A DNA stretch of 32,491 bases from Planctomycetota bacterium (lineage in GTDB: Bacteria; Planctomycetota; Phycisphaerae; Phycisphaerales; SM1A02). This document shows, one piece after another, positions 3,317 through 19,961 of the stretch. Location of the stretch: contig JADFIM010000004.1 in the NCBI GenBank assembly GCA_022566725.1, positions 1 to 32,491 of the forward strand, written 5' to 3'. The position numbers and the translations under genes are program-made. A model generated the notes under the pieces. The model saw nothing but the letters and a program-made list of their open reading frames with translations. It had not been told where the DNA came from and ran no database searches. Each line of letters begins with the position of its first letter. The first letter of the stretch is position 1.

Positions 3317-3771
3317 GGGACGGGCGCCTTGCTCCAGCCAAATGAACGCACCATTAGATCGAAAACCCTCCGTCTTGGCAAGCCCCCAGCCAAGACCCAA
3401 TCGATCACCTGTCGCCACATCGAGCGGAGGGCTCTCACGAGGCACCCTCATTCAGCGGGTGAAGCACCGTGCATGACCCTCGGCCGGCGACCCGCTCGCA
3501 TCGGGGTGGGTGGCGGCGACCATGCAAACATGGCGGACCGCCTCACTCAACGAGACCTGATGGGCCACGCGCAACGATCAGCCTCGAGGCCGGCACGCCC
3601 TGGAATATCGGAACCGCCTGACTCACGATCGACGAGGGCTCGTCGCCCGCGTAGGCCCACCAGATTCCCCGACTGGTGATTCTTCGCAGATAACTGGGCC
3701 AAACCGGCTGATCTCGTGGGCCGCTCCGGGCGATAACTATTCCAGGAATCTCAGGCCAAGGAGCCGCTGGC

Positions 3772-6369
3772 GTGTCAAAGGGCGACGCAAGCAAAGGTAT
3801 CAAGAACCCGCCGGCGACCGAGCAGGAGGCGGCGAAGGGCCTGACCCAGACGATCCAGTCATTGATCGAAGAATCCAACCGCTCCACCGGCCGGCTTGAA
3901 GAGATGATCAATCTCACCCGGCGCACCAAGACCCAGATCGCCGCCGCTTCAGCGCGTCTCCAGCGGCACCTCCGCCCCCAGGCAAGCCGGCACAAGGCGC
4001 CGCAGGATCGGACCGCGGTCAGGATGCCGGGAAACTCCAAGCCGCCAGCTCGCCAGGGGGCCTCTCCACCAGCGAAGATCAAGCCACATCATCCGGCCGC
4101 TGACTTCACCGCCCTACTGAGCAACGGGTTTCGGCAATGCGAGGAGTATCTGCGCAAGTTCATCAAAGTGCTCGTCGAGCAGGCACCCGCCATCACCAGG
4201 ATTAGCGAAGCCGCCAGAGTGCAGGTATCGCTGGTCGCTCACCGGGCCGCCAGCGGCGCCACGCAATTCGCGCCCAAGCTCAGCCTCAGACGGCTCAAGA
4301 CCCAAGCGACGCAAAGGCGAAGTCGCATCCAGGGCCTGCTGGCTTCAAAGCGATCGCTCGAATCCAAGGTGTCGGCGTTGACCGTCAAATGCGAGCGACT
4401 GAAGAGGGAGCGGTCGGCCGCCAGGGAAGAGGTCCGCGAGCAGACGAAACTGCTGGCGTCAAAGGAGACGCTCGAGGAGCAGGTGGCCGAACTGACCGCC
4501 AAGTGCGAGCATCTCGACGCAGCACGAAATACCGCAACCACCTGGCTCGCAACGGCGGAAGCCGAGGTCCGCGACCAGAAAAAGCAGTTGGCTTCCAGCG
4601 AGGCGCTCCAGGAGCGGTTCGCCAAGCTGAGCGCCAAGTGTGAACGCCTGGCCAGGGAGCTGGCGGAGGTGAAGGCCCAGCTCAGCGCCAAGAGCGAGCT
4701 GTTGGCCGCCAAAGGAGTGCTGGAGCACCGGTTGACCGAGCTGACCGCCGAACGCGAACAACTGAAAGATGAGCGAGCCGCGGCGGAGGCTGAGGTCCAA
4801 GCCAAGACCAACCTGCTTGCGTCCAAGGAGGGACTCGAGGAACAGTTGGCCCAGTTGACCTCCGAGTGCGAAGAACTACGAAACGAGCGAGCGGCGGCGG
4901 AGGCTGAGGTCCAAGCCAAGACCAGCCTGCTTGCGTCCAAGGAGGGACTCGAGGAACAGTTGGCCCAGTTGAACTCCGAGTGCGAAGAACTACGAAACGA
5001 ACGAGCCGCGGCGGAGGCTGAGGTCCAAGCCAAGACCAGCCTGCTTGCGTCCAAGGAGGGACTCGAGGAACAGTTGGCCCAGTTGAACTCCGAGTGCAAG
5101 CAACTGAGAAACGAGCGGGCAGCGACGGAGGCTGAGGATCAGACAAGCATCGAGACACAGGTGCTCAATGAGGGACTCGAGCGCCGGCTGACCAGGCTGA
5201 CCGCCGAATGCGAACAACTGAGAACGGCGCAAACGGAAGCGGTGGCGGAGGCCCAAGCGAAGACCAGCCTGCTTGCGTCCAAGGACGGACTCGAGCGCCG
5301 ACTGACCGAGCTGACCACCAAGTGCGAACAACTGGAGAAGGAGCGGGCGGCAGCGAAGGCCAACGTCCACTCCAACGGCCTGGAGGTGATCACCCAGGCA
5401 TTGTCTGCGCCGGTTGACGCCGTGATCAGCACGATCGATCTCTTGCGAGAGACAAGACTCGATGACCAGCAACGGCAACACCTCAGGGCAGCCGACTCAT
5501 CCGTCGCCGCCTTGCTAAGCCTGCTCGATTGCGTGGCGAATCTGCCAAGAATCCTGGACGGCGGTCTCGAACTTGAAAGAACGGAGGTAGACCTTCGACA
5601 GACGCTCAAAGACACCGTCAGCATGTTGACCCCCATTGCGAACAACCGGGGGCTGGAGCTCACCTGCGAAGTCGAACCCGACCTCTCCGCCTTGGTTCAG
5701 AGCGACCCGAAATGGCTTCGGCAAATCCTCCTGTACCTCACGAGCCAGTCGATCCAGCTTGCCTCACAGGGTAAGGTGGTTATTCGCGCTACAGTGGAGA
5801 AGATGACGGAGGCTACCAACACGATACGGTTTGCCGTGCACTTCACGAGTACAGCGGTTTCGCAGGAAACATTGGATCGAGCATTCCCCTGGCACCGTCA
5901 CGCGAACGAGCCGGCGACCCCCAACAACGACGGAGATCTCACCTCGGCCCTGATGAGGCTTGTAGAGCTGTTGAAAGGTGAGATGGGCGTCGAGCGACAG
6001 GATAATGGCACACTAGCAATCTGGTTTACAATTGCGTTTGACATGGCCCATAAGCTGGGTGACGCCCGGCGGGCCTACGGACGATTGCGGCAGGAAGCGC
6101 TGGATTGCAACCTCGGGGCGGTCCTCGACCTTTCGCTGGGAGGGATGCGGGTACAGTGCAATCGACCCCCGAAAGGCGAGGTCGATGTCGAGCTGGTGGG
6201 CTCGGAGGTCAAGCTCAGACTCCGGGCCCAGGTTGTCTGGACCAGGCGCGTTGGCTTTCGCAAATATGAGGTCGGGCTGAACTTCCTCCGCCTCCCTGCG
6301 GAGACGAGCAAGCAACTGACTCGAATCTCACTCAACCACCGGGTGCGCCGCTCGTTCGGCCCCGTCTGA
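3772..6369 (+). CDS. Long coiled-coil protein with degenerate histidine-kinase core (HisKA/HATPase-like) and C-terminal PilZ domain
   Basis: GTG start with upstream AAGGAG; about 300 aa of heptad-rich repeats, then VDLRQTLKDTVSMLTPIANNRGLELTCEVEPDLSALVQSDPKWLRQILLYL (HATPase N-terminal pattern), then LDLSLGGMRVQCNRPPKGEVDVEL...LRAQVVWTRR...YEVGLNFLRL (PilZ pattern). Confidence 0.8.
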   Translation: MSKGDASKGIKNPPATEQEAAKGLTQTIQSLIEESNRSTGRLEEMINLTRRTKTQIAAASARLQRHLRPQASRHKAPQDRTAVRMPGNSKPPARQGASPPAKIKPHHPAADFTALLSNGFRQCEEYLRKFIKVLVEQAPAITRISEAARVQVSLVAHRAASGATQFAPKLSLRRLKTQATQRRSRIQGLLASKRSLESKVSALTVKCERLKRERSAAREEVREQTKLLASKETLEEQVAELTAKCEHLDAARNTATTWLATAEAEVRDQKKQLASSEALQERFAKLSAKCERLARELAEVKAQLSAKSELLAAKGVLEHRLTELTAEREQLKDERAAAEAEVQAKTNLLASKEGLEEQLAQLTSECEELRNERAAAEAEVQAKTSLLASKEGLEEQLAQLNSECEELRNERAAAEAEVQAKTSLLASKEGLEEQLAQLNSECKQLRNERAATEAEDQTSIETQVLNEGLERRLTRLTAECEQLRTAQTEAVAEAQAKTSLLASKDGLERRLTELTTKCEQLEKERAAAKANVHSNGLEVITQALSAPVDAVISTIDLLRETRLDDQQRQHLRAADSSVAALLSLLDCVANLPRILDGGLELERTEVDLRQTLKDTVSMLTPIANNRGLELTCEVEPDLSALVQSDPKWLRQILLYLTSQSIQLASQGKVVIRATVEKMTEATNTIRFAVHFTSTAVSQETLDRAFPWHRHANEPATPNNDGDLTSALMRLVELLKGEMGVERQDNGTLAIWFTIAFDMAHKLGDARRAYGRLRQEALDCNLGAVLDLSLGGMRVQCNRPPKGEVDVELVGSEVKLRLRAQVVWTRRVGFRKYEVGLNFLRLPAETSKQLTRISLNHRVRRSFGPV
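4771..5112 (+). repeat. Three near-identical 114-bp tandem repeats (38-aa coiled-coil module) within the coiled-coil gene
   Basis: Units 4771-4884, 4885-4998 and 4999-5112 encode ERAAAEAEVQAKT(N/S)LLASKEGLEEQLAQL(T/N)SEC(E/K)(E/Q)LRN; more divergent copies lie on both sides. Confidence 0.95.
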
Positions 6370-7226: not shown

Positions 7227-7961
7227 GTGCACGAGACGCGGAACTTCTGCCTGGTGATCATGCTCATCGCCTCGGTCATCTGGGCGAGTGTGGCCTGGTT
7301 CATCCTCGGCTCGGACTCTCCGTTCATCTGGTACCAGCGAGTCACCTTGCCGGCGATCATTCTGATCTCAGCGGCATGGCTGATCTACGCCCTGATGTTC
7401 GAGGAAAAGCTGCACGACCACCTCAAGGAAGTCGTCGGAGACATCTACTACGACGCCGATGGATTATCGTTCATGCCCATGATTCGCGCCCGCGGCACGC
7501 AGGCGGAGCTGAGTGTTTACTACCAGAATCGTTTCGAGAACCCGGTGGATGCGATCGTACACCTTCGGCCGCCGCAGGAGTGCTTCATCATTCGGCCGGG
7601 GATGCGTGACGTTCACTTTGCGTTCAATGCCAAGGGTGGCGCCTTCGGAGTGATCCACCAGCCGATCGCGATTCCCGAACATTTGCAGGGTGAGCTGATC
7701 AACGTCCTGCTCGCCGCGGCAAGCTGGTACCCGCACAGCCACGGGTCTCGGCTGCTGCGGCACGCCGGCTTGCCCTGCGGCGCCCTGCTGGTGGATTGGG
7801 GCGGCGCTGCGTTCAGGACCGGCGTCCACGAAGTCTCCGGCGAGATCGAGTTGATCAACCCCGTCACGCTTCATCTGTCCCTGCCTGTCGGCGTCAACTC
7901 AACCATCACCGGCAACGAAGTCTGGACGCAGGAGCAACTCGCCGCAGGCACGAGTGCCTAG
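7227..7961 (+). CDS. Hypothetical protein, two N-terminal TM helices plus a soluble domain
   Basis: 244-aa ORF with hydrophobic N-terminus (FCLVIMLIASVIWASVAWFIL; LPAIILISAAWLIYALMF); no family recognised. Confidence 0.7.
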   Translation: MHETRNFCLVIMLIASVIWASVAWFILGSDSPFIWYQRVTLPAIILISAAWLIYALMFEEKLHDHLKEVVGDIYYDADGLSFMPMIRARGTQAELSVYYQNRFENPVDAIVHLRPPQECFIIRPGMRDVHFAFNAKGGAFGVIHQPIAIPEHLQGELINVLLAAASWYPHSHGSRLLRHAGLPCGALLVDWGGAAFRTGVHEVSGEIELINPVTLHLSLPVGVNSTITGNEVWTQEQLAAGTSA

Positions 7962-11389: not shown

Positions 11390-12670
11390 TCACCGCCGAT
11401 CAGAGACGCGATGTACACCGAGCTGGACGTAGTCCCTGGAGAACACAAGATCAACGGTCCAGTCCAGCGCGACACGCACCTTGCGCGCAAGCGTCGGCAT
11501 CTTGAGCAGATACACCGTTCGCCAAAGCCACCACGCCGTGAACCCGGAGAGCTTGATGCCGTAGACCTTCGCCACGCCCGTACGACAGCCCAGCGCCGCC
11601 AAGGCGCCTCTGGTCTTGATGTGACATGGTCTGGGCTGCGCGCCTTTGAGGACCGCCGCCAGATTGCGCGCTAAGTGCGCGCCTTGGCGCACAGCATGCT
11701 GGGCTGTGGCCGCATAGGCATATCCGTCGGGATCGGGGTTCACCGCGCAATCACCGACCGCCCAGACGTTGTCGAACCCCTTCACCCGAAGATTATGCTC
11801 GCAGAGGATGTATCCGCGCTCATCCACCGGCAGCGACCAGCCTCGCACGATTGGATTCTGTTCAATGCCGGCACACCAGATGACGGTGTGGGCGCCCAGC
11901 GAGTCGCCGGTGCTGAGCGAGACTCGATCGCGCTCAATGGCCGTCACTGTGCTGTCCAGCAGGAGCTTGACACCGCGCTTGCTCAGGTGCGCGGCGGCAT
12001 ACCGCGAAAGATCAGGATCAAGGGCCGTGAGAATGCGGTCACCCAGCTCGATGAGCGTGATAGTCACATCCGTTTCGTTGACGTGGAGATACTGCCGACT
12101 GCCGTGGCGGAGAAACACGTCGAACTCCCCGGCCACCTCGACCCCGGTGAAGTTGCCCCCGACGACCACGAAGTGAAGCAACGCCCGCCGCTTCGCCGTG
12201 TCAGCGGTCGCGTCGGCCAACTCGAGCATCGAGATCGCCCGATCGCGCAAAGCCACCGCGTCGGCAAGGCTTTTCATTTCGTAGCCGAATTCACGAAGTC
12301 CCGGCACCTCGGGCAAGCGAGTAACACTGCCGACCGAGATCACGAGATGGTCATAGCGAATCTGCTCTTGGCTGTCACCGCCCACCAGTTGATAGCTGAC
12401 CACCTGCCGCTCGAAATCGATATCGCCCACCTCAGCCATGCGGAAGTCGGCTGATCTGAGGAATGCCCGCATGGGCACCACCGCGTGCCGCGGTTCGAGG
12501 CTGCCGGTTCCAGCCTCGATGAGCAGCGGATAGAACACGAAGTAGTTGTTGCGATCGATCAGCAGGACCTCGGCGTCGATACCGCGCAGCGATTTCTTCA
12601 GCGCCTGCGCGCAGTATGCTCCGGCGAAGCCTCCACCCAGGATGACAATTTGTTGGCGACTCGCGTTCAC
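11390..12670 (-). CDS. Type II NADH dehydrogenase-like FAD/NAD(P) oxidoreductase
   Basis: QQIVILGGGFAGAYCAQAL (Rossmann fold), VVVGGNFTGVEVAGE, VWAVGDCA; GTG start at 12670 overlaps the upstream gene's TGA (GTGA). Confidence 0.9.
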   Translation of the reverse strand: MNASRQQIVILGGGFAGAYCAQALKKSLRGIDAEVLLIDRNNYFVFYPLLIEAGTGSLEPRHAVVPMRAFLRSADFRMAEVGDIDFERQVVSYQLVGGDSQEQIRYDHLVISVGSVTRLPEVPGLREFGYEMKSLADAVALRDRAISMLELADATADTAKRRALLHFVVVGGNFTGVEVAGEFDVFLRHGSRQYLHVNETDVTITLIELGDRILTALDPDLSRYAAAHLSKRGVKLLLDSTVTAIERDRVSLSTGDSLGAHTVIWCAGIEQNPIVRGWSLPVDERGYILCEHNLRVKGFDNVWAVGDCAVNPDPDGYAYAATAQHAVRQGAHLARNLAAVLKGAQPRPCHIKTRGALAALGCRTGVAKVYGIKLSGFTAWWLWRTVYLLKMPTLARKVRVALDWTVDLVFSRDYVQLGVHRVSDRR

Positions 12671-13788
12671 GGACAACCTGATGCTAGCCGGTTCGCCTCG
12701 GCGGCCATCACCAGCGAAGCGCGGCCGTTGTGTTCCGTGACTTTCCGCTGATGGTCGGAATCGCGTATCCAGGCGACCTGATCGCGCATCATGGCCCGAA
12801 GCAGCTGGCCATATCGGTCGTACTTGACGGTTTCATGGCCTGCGGTCAGTTCCAGTCTCTGCCAAACCTCCAGGTTCTCTTGGCGAGCCCGACATCGGCG
12901 CTCCTGACCCTGGTAGAGCTGGGTGACATCGAGCCTGGCACCGGGGAACAGCTCGCACAACGTGCGGGTCTGGGCCTCGTCCGCGACGGCATGGATGCGC
13001 AGCCGCGTCGGCACCCACTCGTATAGCGTTACCTCCCCGCGCTCAAACAGAAGCCGGAACTTCTGGCGATCCATCCGCGACGGCTGATGGAAGCCATGAT
13101 ACATATTGACGAGCACATCGCGGTCGTAGCGAACGGTGCATTGGACCTGCTCCTGGAGGTCTGTACCCGGGCGAACAGCCTGCTGCGCCGCGACGACTCG
13201 TCCCGGGCCGAGCCAGCCTTCGAAGAGATCGAAGAAGTGCACGCCGTGCTCGATGAAGATGCCCCCGCTCTTTGCGCGATCCCAGAACCAATGCTCGGCC
13301 GGCAAATGCTCATCGGCGGCGTAGTTCTCGAAGTAGCCATGGAGCACCTCGCCCAGCGGCTTGGATTCGATCAACCGGTTGACCGCGTCAATCAGTGGGT
13401 TGTAGCGTTGCATGAGGTTCGCGACGATCAGCACGTTGCGCGCTTTCGCCAAGGCGATCATCGCGTCCGCTTGCTCAACGGTCAGAACCAACGGCTTTTC
13501 GCAAATGACGTGCTTGGACGCCTCCAGGGCAAGCATGGCCTGGGGATGATAGAGGAACGGCGGGGTCGAGATGTACACGAGATCGATGTCGTCTCGGGCA
13601 ACGAGCGCTTCGACATCTTCGATGTCGGGAATGTTGTAGCGCGCCGCGGCCCGCTTGGCGGCATCGCGATGCGTGCCCGCCATGCCGACGAGCTCCACGC
13701 CCGGTACCTGGACAAAGTGTTGCAGCGCAAACAGGCCAAAGCCGCCGCACCCGATGACCCCGAATCGAATGGCCTGATCGTCACCCAT
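12667..13788 (-). CDS. Gfo/Idh/MocA family oxidoreductase
   Basis: FGVIGCGGFGLFALQHF..., VISTPP-like YISTPPFLYHPQAMLALEASKHVICEKPLVLTVEQA. Confidence 0.93.
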   Translation of the reverse strand: MGDDQAIRFGVIGCGGFGLFALQHFVQVPGVELVGMAGTHRDAAKRAAARYNIPDIEDVEALVARDDIDLVYISTPPFLYHPQAMLALEASKHVICEKPLVLTVEQADAMIALAKARNVLIVANLMQRYNPLIDAVNRLIESKPLGEVLHGYFENYAADEHLPAEHWFWDRAKSGGIFIEHGVHFFDLFEGWLGPGRVVAAQQAVRPGTDLQEQVQCTVRYDRDVLVNMYHGFHQPSRMDRQKFRLLFERGEVTLYEWVPTRLRIHAVADEAQTRTLCELFPGARLDVTQLYQGQERRCRARQENLEVWQRLELTAGHETVKYDRYGQLLRAMMRDQVAWIRDSDHQRKVTEHNGRASLVMAAEANRLASGCP

Positions 13789-18974: not shown

Positions 18975-19961
18975 TCAACCGTCGATTAGCGCTCGCTTCA
19001 GTCTTGGCGAGACCTTCCAAATCGTGTATCCGCCGAAATACCGACTTATTTCAACAAAGCCCTGCTCCTCCAGAACGCGAAGCAGATGGTCGCGTAACCG
19101 TTCGGGGGCGTCGAGTACTTCAAGATCTGCTTTGGTGTGCCACTTCTCGTTTACCAGGCCGGAAACAAGTCGCGTCAGAAGGCTGTCGTAATTCGGCCAC
19201 TTCGCCTTCGCGTACGCATCGAAGGCGTGTGTTGCAATACGGAGATGAGTGATGCCAAACTCCTTATAGGTACCCCCGCTCGCCCCTGACAACTCAACGT
19301 AGCCTTCGTCGTCCAGGATGTTAAGAGAATCACCCAATGCTTCGTCTGTAATGCCAGTGGCGGACACGGCATCGAGACAAGACAAGCCGACCACGAGCAC
19401 GTCCTCGGCTCGCACGCTCTCATCGCACAGGGTCTCCAGAACCATGAGGTCAACTTTGTCTAGAGAAGGAATGTCTAAGAGTGGGTGGATATCTGCATAG
19501 CCGGGGGAGGCACCAATCGGCGGCTTGTCCGTAACTCCGAAGATTGAGGAGAGGATGCGCTGCAACTCCTCTGAGTAGTCAGTCAGGTTTGTGATACGCT
19601 GCCAGAGTGTGGACTGCAGACACTCCGGGACGGCGCAATCATCTAGAACAACAGGGATCAACCTACACTTGCCTGAAACTCGCTTGACAAATCCCGCGTT
19701 GAGCTCCTCGCGTACCCATGGCTTGGTAACGCTCACTTTCGAGAGGACAACGATCAGCGCGGTAGCGTTCTTGATCCCTTCTTCGAATATCTTGTCGACG
19801 AGACGATCGCCAGGCATCATCTCCCATTTATCCAGCCAAGCGTCGACCCCGTTGTCACGCAGCTTCTTTGCCAACTCAACGACAAAGCGATCTTTGTCTT
19901 CGCTGGCATGCGAAATAAACACTCGGGGTGGTGATGAAGCCTGCGGCATTTCTGTCCCCAA
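18975..19961 (-). CDS. TIR-domain protein with C-terminal winged-helix-like region
   Basis: RVFISHASEDKDRFVVELAKKLRDNGVDAWLDKWEMMPGDRLVDKIFEEGIKNATALIVVLSKVSVTKPWVREELNAGF is TIR_2-like with the conserved Glu after S..W; start could be TTG 19961 or ATG 19949. Confidence 0.9.
   Translation of the reverse strand: MGTEMPQASSPPRVFISHASEDKDRFVVELAKKLRDNGVDAWLDKWEMMPGDRLVDKIFEEGIKNATALIVVLSKVSVTKPWVREELNAGFVKRVSGKCRLIPVVLDDCAVPECLQSTLWQRITNLTDYSEELQRILSSIFGVTDKPPIGASPGYADIHPLLDIPSLDKVDLMVLETLCDESVRAEDVLVVGLSCLDAVSATGITDEALGDSLNILDDEGYVELSGASGGTYKEFGITHLRIATHAFDAYAKAKWPNYDSLLTRLVSGLVNEKWHTKADLEVLDAPERLRDHLLRVLEEQGFVEISRYFGGYTIWKVSPRLKRALIDG

Follow-up and report, generated by a model that had tools for sequence, protein, structure and literature searches.

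Gene, domains, and neighborhood

The window, which is the whole stretch of 32,491 nucleotides analyzed here (Planctomycetota bacterium, assembly GCA_022566725.1, contig JADFIM010000004.1), carries a GTG-initiated open reading frame of 865 amino acids on the + strand, at 3772-6369, exactly where the first-pass annotation had placed it. The features of the gene and its product are as follows.

3758-3763, + strand: AAGGAG, resembling a Shine-Dalgarno sequence, 8 nt upstream of the GTG (direct sequence reading)
3772-6369, + strand: coding sequence, 865 aa, with N-terminal helix, repeat coiled coil, pseudo-DHp, pseudo-CA, and PilZ
3820-3969, + strand: N-terminal helix, residues 17-66, a pattern common to orthologues in four genera
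4596-5375, + strand: coiled coil of 114-bp (38-aa) repeats, copy number variable within the genus
5374-5559, + strand: pseudo-DHp, residues 535-596, two long helices (PDB match, model, Foldseek)
5389-5412, + strand: former H-box ITQALSAP, residues 540-547, His replaced by Gln542 (alignment)
5581-6042, + strand: pseudo-CA or HATPase-like domain, residues 604-757 (NCBIfam, PDB, model, Foldseek)
5728-5763, + strand: former N-box LLYLTSQSIQLA, residues 653-664, Asn replaced by Gln659 (alignment)
5839-5859, + strand: former G1 box HFTSTAV, residues 690-696, no DxGxG (alignment)
5923-5955, + strand: former G2 box NNDGDLTSALM, residue 718 on, no GxGLG (alignment)
6055-6366, + strand: PilZ domain and C-terminal helix, residues 762-865 (PF07238; the model is beta-rich there)
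6070-6084, + strand: RAYGR, residues 767-771, the canonical PilZ RxxxR (sequence)
6127-6144, + strand: DLSLGG, residues 786-791, the canonical PilZ [D/N]xSxxG (sequence)

Orthologues in two genomes of the same genus are 91% identical to the window protein over the core. The gene stands alone on the + strand, flanked by an H+-PPase gene (-) and a PNPOx gene (-). An H+-PPase lies upstream in genera g1 and g24, and the downstream PNPOx, a 244-aa ORF (7227-7961), and a met-zincin are common to g1, g24, g13, and g300. A kinase or response regulator was sought among the neighbors, which lie on either strand and are metabolic or unknown, and none was found. Inference of an operon or a partner from the neighbors failed, the gene standing alone on its strand.

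Other genes of the window deserve brief mention. The 244-aa protein at 7227-7961 (+) has no Pfam match and is 64-97% identical beside the gene in four genera. A TIR-domain protein (TIR_2, 3e-28, with a weak ThsB_TIR match as well) is encoded at 18975-19961 (-). For the GFO/IDH/MocA protein at 12667-13788 (-), the alignments with G001 and G003 span only residues 1-120 and 220-372, and the middle ~100 residues are unmatched.

Kinase ancestry and loss of the catalytic motifs

Residues ~519-763 are homologous to the core of GacS/BarA/TorS-type histidine kinases. NCBIfam models match residues ~521-773 (TorS 9e-26, BarA 1e-25), and the PDB sequence matches include GacS 7z8n (6e-21) and RetS (4e-14); judged from these matches, the kinase homology of the core is no doubt far beyond chance. 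Across the sequence and structure searches, the best relatives are GacS, RetS, and ShkA, and the family profile also matches DivL (7e-25). The Pfam HisKA and HATPase_c matches of the window protein fall below the cut-off. In syntenic orthologues they exceed it (HisKA 1e-11 to 1e-13, HATPase_c up to 6e-17), and the orthologues with such HisKA matches carry Arg or Ser in place of His. Since the kinase domains are still above threshold there, the window protein represents a further step in the same drift.

The C-terminal 348 residues were modeled with AlphaFold from a 15-row alignment of the window protein and its relatives (mean pLDDT 74, pTM 0.54). This model predicts the DHp-CA fold of HisKA histidine kinases, with DHp helices at residues 519-559 and 565-595, and a Foldseek search with it retrieved GacS (9e-19) and RetS (7e-15). 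The first of these helices is predicted to run on from the coiled coil without a break. A full-length model made without an alignment (mean pLDDT 49) is informative for helix content only and places the N-terminal helix at residues 16-66.

The catalytic motifs were compared with those of 41 intact kinases, consisting of Planctomycetota relatives of the same class and two Gammaproteobacteria, all of which have visible H, N, DxGxG, and GxGLG-type boxes. In the window protein, Gln takes the place of both His and Asn, FTSTA stands where DxGxG would be, and G2 is broken; the motif strings quoted in the first-pass annotation are all present at the aligned positions. These losses extend to its relatives: H, N, and DxGxG are gone from all 14 tabulated fusion proteins and from 0/41 intact kinases. 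Across the 14, the residue at the phospho-acceptor position is Q, R, S, T, G, D, or K and never His, the aligned N-box position is never Asn, and DxGxG is absent throughout. A G2-like GLGL or GMGL lid remains in six (L049, L050, L055, L040, L051, and L052). As read from the alignment, a GacS-type DHp-CA core has thus been shown to be stripped of its phospho-acceptor and ATP-binding residues. The annotation had suggested a kinase fold without catalysis and had proposed structure prediction and a search for homologues with the same losses as checks; the DHp/CA fold in the model, the Foldseek match to GacS at 9e-19, the lost boxes, and the 14/14 fusion proteins lacking H, N, and DxGxG bear this out.

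The altered CA domain could in principle still bind nucleotide or catalyze another reaction, given the G2-like lid in 6/14 relatives and the HATPase_c cut-off exceeded by some of them. Such a cryptic enzyme is highly improbable, as the N-box Asn (for Mg-ATP) and the G1 Asp (for adenine) are gone in every member, and in the window protein the G2 motif has disappeared as well.

Variable N-terminal parts

The coiled coil of the window protein contains six registered copies of a repeat with 114-nt spacing, and the open frames in G000, G001, and G003 have 885, 847, and 923 codons. Repeat copy number in the coiled-coil array of the genus changes quickly. The N-terminal helix pattern was seen in the window protein, L036, L037, L049, L050, L055, and L039. 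In the orthologue L038, the conserved N-terminal helix begins only ~65 residues ahead of the kinase-like core, and in the G026 orthologue, a short helical stretch alone precedes the core and the repeat array is absent. Three relatives (L040, L051, and L052) instead have an N-terminal hydrophobic stretch, read from the sequence, followed by a PAS domain. The pseudokinase and PilZ form the unit common to all members, and the part before them varies, which makes the long coiled coil a poor guide to function.

Further proteins share parts of this architecture. An in-genome paralogue (L043, 4774-7761, - strand, contig C258; further copies L044, L045, and L046) has hydrophobic N-terminal stretches, PAS, a different coiled coil, a pseudokinase with Lys for His, and PilZ. 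The PilZ of this type is without RxxxR and DxSxxG, and both catalytic and ligand motifs have therefore been lost. This type has nonetheless been kept in four genomes of the genus, where its pseudokinase and PilZ parts show dN/dS values of about 0.05-0.4. In G012, a 448-aa frame on the minus strand (L026) encodes a coiled coil-PilZ protein with a closely similar PilZ and no kinase-like part.

The protein may be a structural scaffold or positioning protein, in which the pseudokinase would be a homodimer module together with the coiled coil and PilZ would regulate assembly or localization with no link to a phosphorelay. This is unlikely, if still worth weighing: the long coiled coil of the genus, predicted to be continuous with DHp helix 1, the existence of a relative such as L026, and the lack of partner genes nearby are all in keeping with it, but the length of the repeat array varies, the G026 orthologue has no such array, and hydrophobic stretches and PAS replace the coiled coil in related members, leaving pseudokinase-PilZ as the shared unit. 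A cytoskeletal or positioning role, as first suggested, is unsupported by a coiled coil that is a 114-bp repeat of variable length and by the short N-terminal spacing in L038.

PilZ domain and cyclic di-GMP

The Pfam PilZ family (PF07238) matches residues 782-852 with an E-value of 1.1e-8 and 35.8 bits, above the curated cut-off of 22.5, in agreement with the earlier assignment of a PilZ-like domain after the kinase-like core. The PilZ part alone gave zero PDB matches by sequence. Canonical PilZ motifs are defined as RxxxR and [D/N]xSxxG (PMC10333796, PMC10912698). The first-pass annotation described RxxxR as not obvious; RAYGR and DLSLGG are RxxxR and DxSxxG, respectively. Both motifs are retained by every orthologue and are missing only in one paralogue clade. 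Binding of c-di-GMP, which had been called uncertain, is likelier than that assessment held because both canonical motifs are conserved in all orthologues. At least four GGDEF cyclases are encoded in the genome, with four domains having intact GGDEF motifs, and c-di-GMP is probably made by this organism. As the paralogue clade lacks the motifs, the group includes members for which binding is not essential.

PilZ of Xanthomonas is a protein-interaction domain with no c-di-GMP binding. A similar role is very unlikely for the window protein, which keeps RxxxR and [D/N]xSxxG along with all its orthologues, even if the paralogue clade has lost both motifs and is still under selection.

Distribution and selection

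From its nearest named relatives, Phycisphaerales bins among them, the source genome was judged to be a Planctomycetota MAG. Full-length pseudokinase-PilZ fusions were found in 14 of the 181 genomes of the source family, covering nine genera. The best five candidates per genome were also scored in three wider samples, from the order (400 genomes), the class (397), and the phylum (392), and no match listed outside the family extends through PilZ; the fusion is likely to be rare outside the source family. Within the same five candidates per genome, these samples of ~400 genomes each yielded no fusion of an intact histidine kinase to PilZ. In a phylogenetic tree, the fusion proteins are split from 41/41 intact kinases on a 100/100 branch. 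A clade produced as an artefact of shared motif loss was considered and rejected, as a tree without the motif columns still gave 100/99. Because the branches of the fusion proteins are long, the PilZ fusion they have in common is an independent support for a single origin. The pseudokinase-PilZ protein is a conserved family and not a lone decayed copy. The first-pass annotation had named close homologues with intact boxes as counting against its reading; no fusion of that kind was found in the family or, among the best five candidates per genome, in the samples of the order, class, and phylum.

Within the genus, dN/dS is 0.34 [0.16-0.71] for DHp, 0.53 [0.31-0.85] for CA, 0.29 [0.13-0.53] for PilZ, and 0.33 for the coiled coil, and two active kinases from the same genus have core values of 0.05 and 0.09, with dS being small (~0.1) and all the ratios hence rough. 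We read these values as relaxed but real constraint, that is, purifying selection on the gene. Relaxed constraint is expected where catalysis no longer matters and shape does.

The alternative of stand-alone decay, with a functionless kinase gene on its way out, would account for the CA dN/dS of 0.53 against 0.05-0.09 in active kinases, for the divergence of the gene, which is quicker than that of its conserved neighbors, and for a loss of G2 that is further advanced in the window lineage than in L049 and L050. Nevertheless, every copy is an open frame without stops, dN/dS is below 1, the catalytic losses are common to nine genera of the family, and the PilZ motifs are intact; we give this alternative very little credence. 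Overall, the kinase fold without catalysis, its maintenance by selection, and the family-wide losses uphold that part of the original interpretation, and the cytoskeletal or positioning role is the part left without support.

Proposed function

The protein may work as a c-di-GMP-responsive, non-enzymatic adaptor, in which the dead DHp-CA core docks a partner and c-di-GMP bound to PilZ alters phosphorelay activity; we hold this proposal with about as much confidence as doubt. The DHp bundle of the dead core would dimerize or dock a partner; candidates are an active histidine kinase, on the model of RetS and GacS, and a receiver domain, on the model of DivL and DivK. Binding of c-di-GMP to PilZ would then change the interaction with the partner, and the c-di-GMP level would be converted into altered phosphorelay activity by an adaptor that has no catalysis itself. 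From the homology, the motif loss and retention, and selection described above, we infer the binding of ligand, the binding of a partner, and the direction of the effect. Active-looking HisKA kinases encoded in the genome are possible partners, and G001 has 12 HisKA matches. L118 of G001, the nearest active kinase seen within the genus, was not found in G000, which is only 82% complete, or in G003. As a counterpoint, homodimerization alone would explain the retained DHp. The two-component adaptor, we infer, fits the homology better than a cytoskeletal or positioning role does.

More broadly, and somewhat more tentatively, the family could represent lineage-restricted non-catalytic two-component adaptors in which PilZ replaces the receiver and the c-di-GMP level, not phosphate, is passed to phosphorelays. 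Here, selection maintains a whole family whose main catalytic boxes are erased and whose attached second-messenger domain has intact motifs, in a phylum where c-di-GMP and two-component signaling are both little explored. With it, one could readily test whether the scaffold of a kinase can be reused purely for coupling c-di-GMP to two-component signaling. In addition, the graded losses among orthologues, with the G2 lid kept or gone, may reveal the order in which the catalytic parts were shed.

Comparison with known systems

Histidine pseudokinases are a known kind of protein, and we found no description in the open-licence literature of a histidine kinase-PilZ or pseudokinase-PilZ fusion. One published estimate has the phospho-acceptor substituted in ~1% of kinases, and the same paper describes studies of such proteins as few (PMC5361649). 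The window protein displays the feature of RetS- and DivL-like pseudokinases, a kinase fold without catalytic motifs that is conserved under selection. The nearest family of its core is that of the GacS/BarA/TorS hybrid histidine kinases, from which it differs in the loss of all catalytic motifs, the absence of REC and Hpt, and the presence of PilZ at the place of REC.

RetS of Pseudomonas aeruginosa has a DHp-CA core close to that of the window protein in sequence and fold. In its published sequence, RetS still has the His of the H-box and an Asn in the N-box; in the PDB sequence match, the H-box position lies at the edge of the alignment. Both residues are gone in the window protein, which has a C-terminal PilZ, whereas RetS has none. 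RetS blocks GacS by replacing the GacS DHp interface, and this action of a kinase-like region on another kinase resembles the proposed adaptor (PMC12148439). In Caulobacter, DivL has Tyr in place of His, binds DivK~P non-catalytically, and modulates CckA; as in the window protein, the phospho-acceptor is replaced, the fold is kept, and the protein is non-catalytic (PMC5361649). DivL differs in having no PilZ, a PAS sensor, Tyr and not Gln for His, and a known receiver partner, DivK.

Input of c-di-GMP into kinases has also been described. One example is HapZ, a PilZ protein that inhibits the phosphotransfer of the kinase SagS, more so with c-di-GMP bound (PMC10333796), and c-di-GMP thereby acts on a kinase via PilZ, as in the proposed adaptor (PMC10333796, PMC10912698). 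In that system, PilZ is a protein separate from an active kinase, whereas here it is fused to an inactive core. SgmT and ShkA/CckA likewise provide c-di-GMP input into two-component proteins (PMC3509222, PMC10333796); unlike the window protein, they are active and bind via GGDEF, a pseudo-receiver, or the kinase itself, and not via PilZ.
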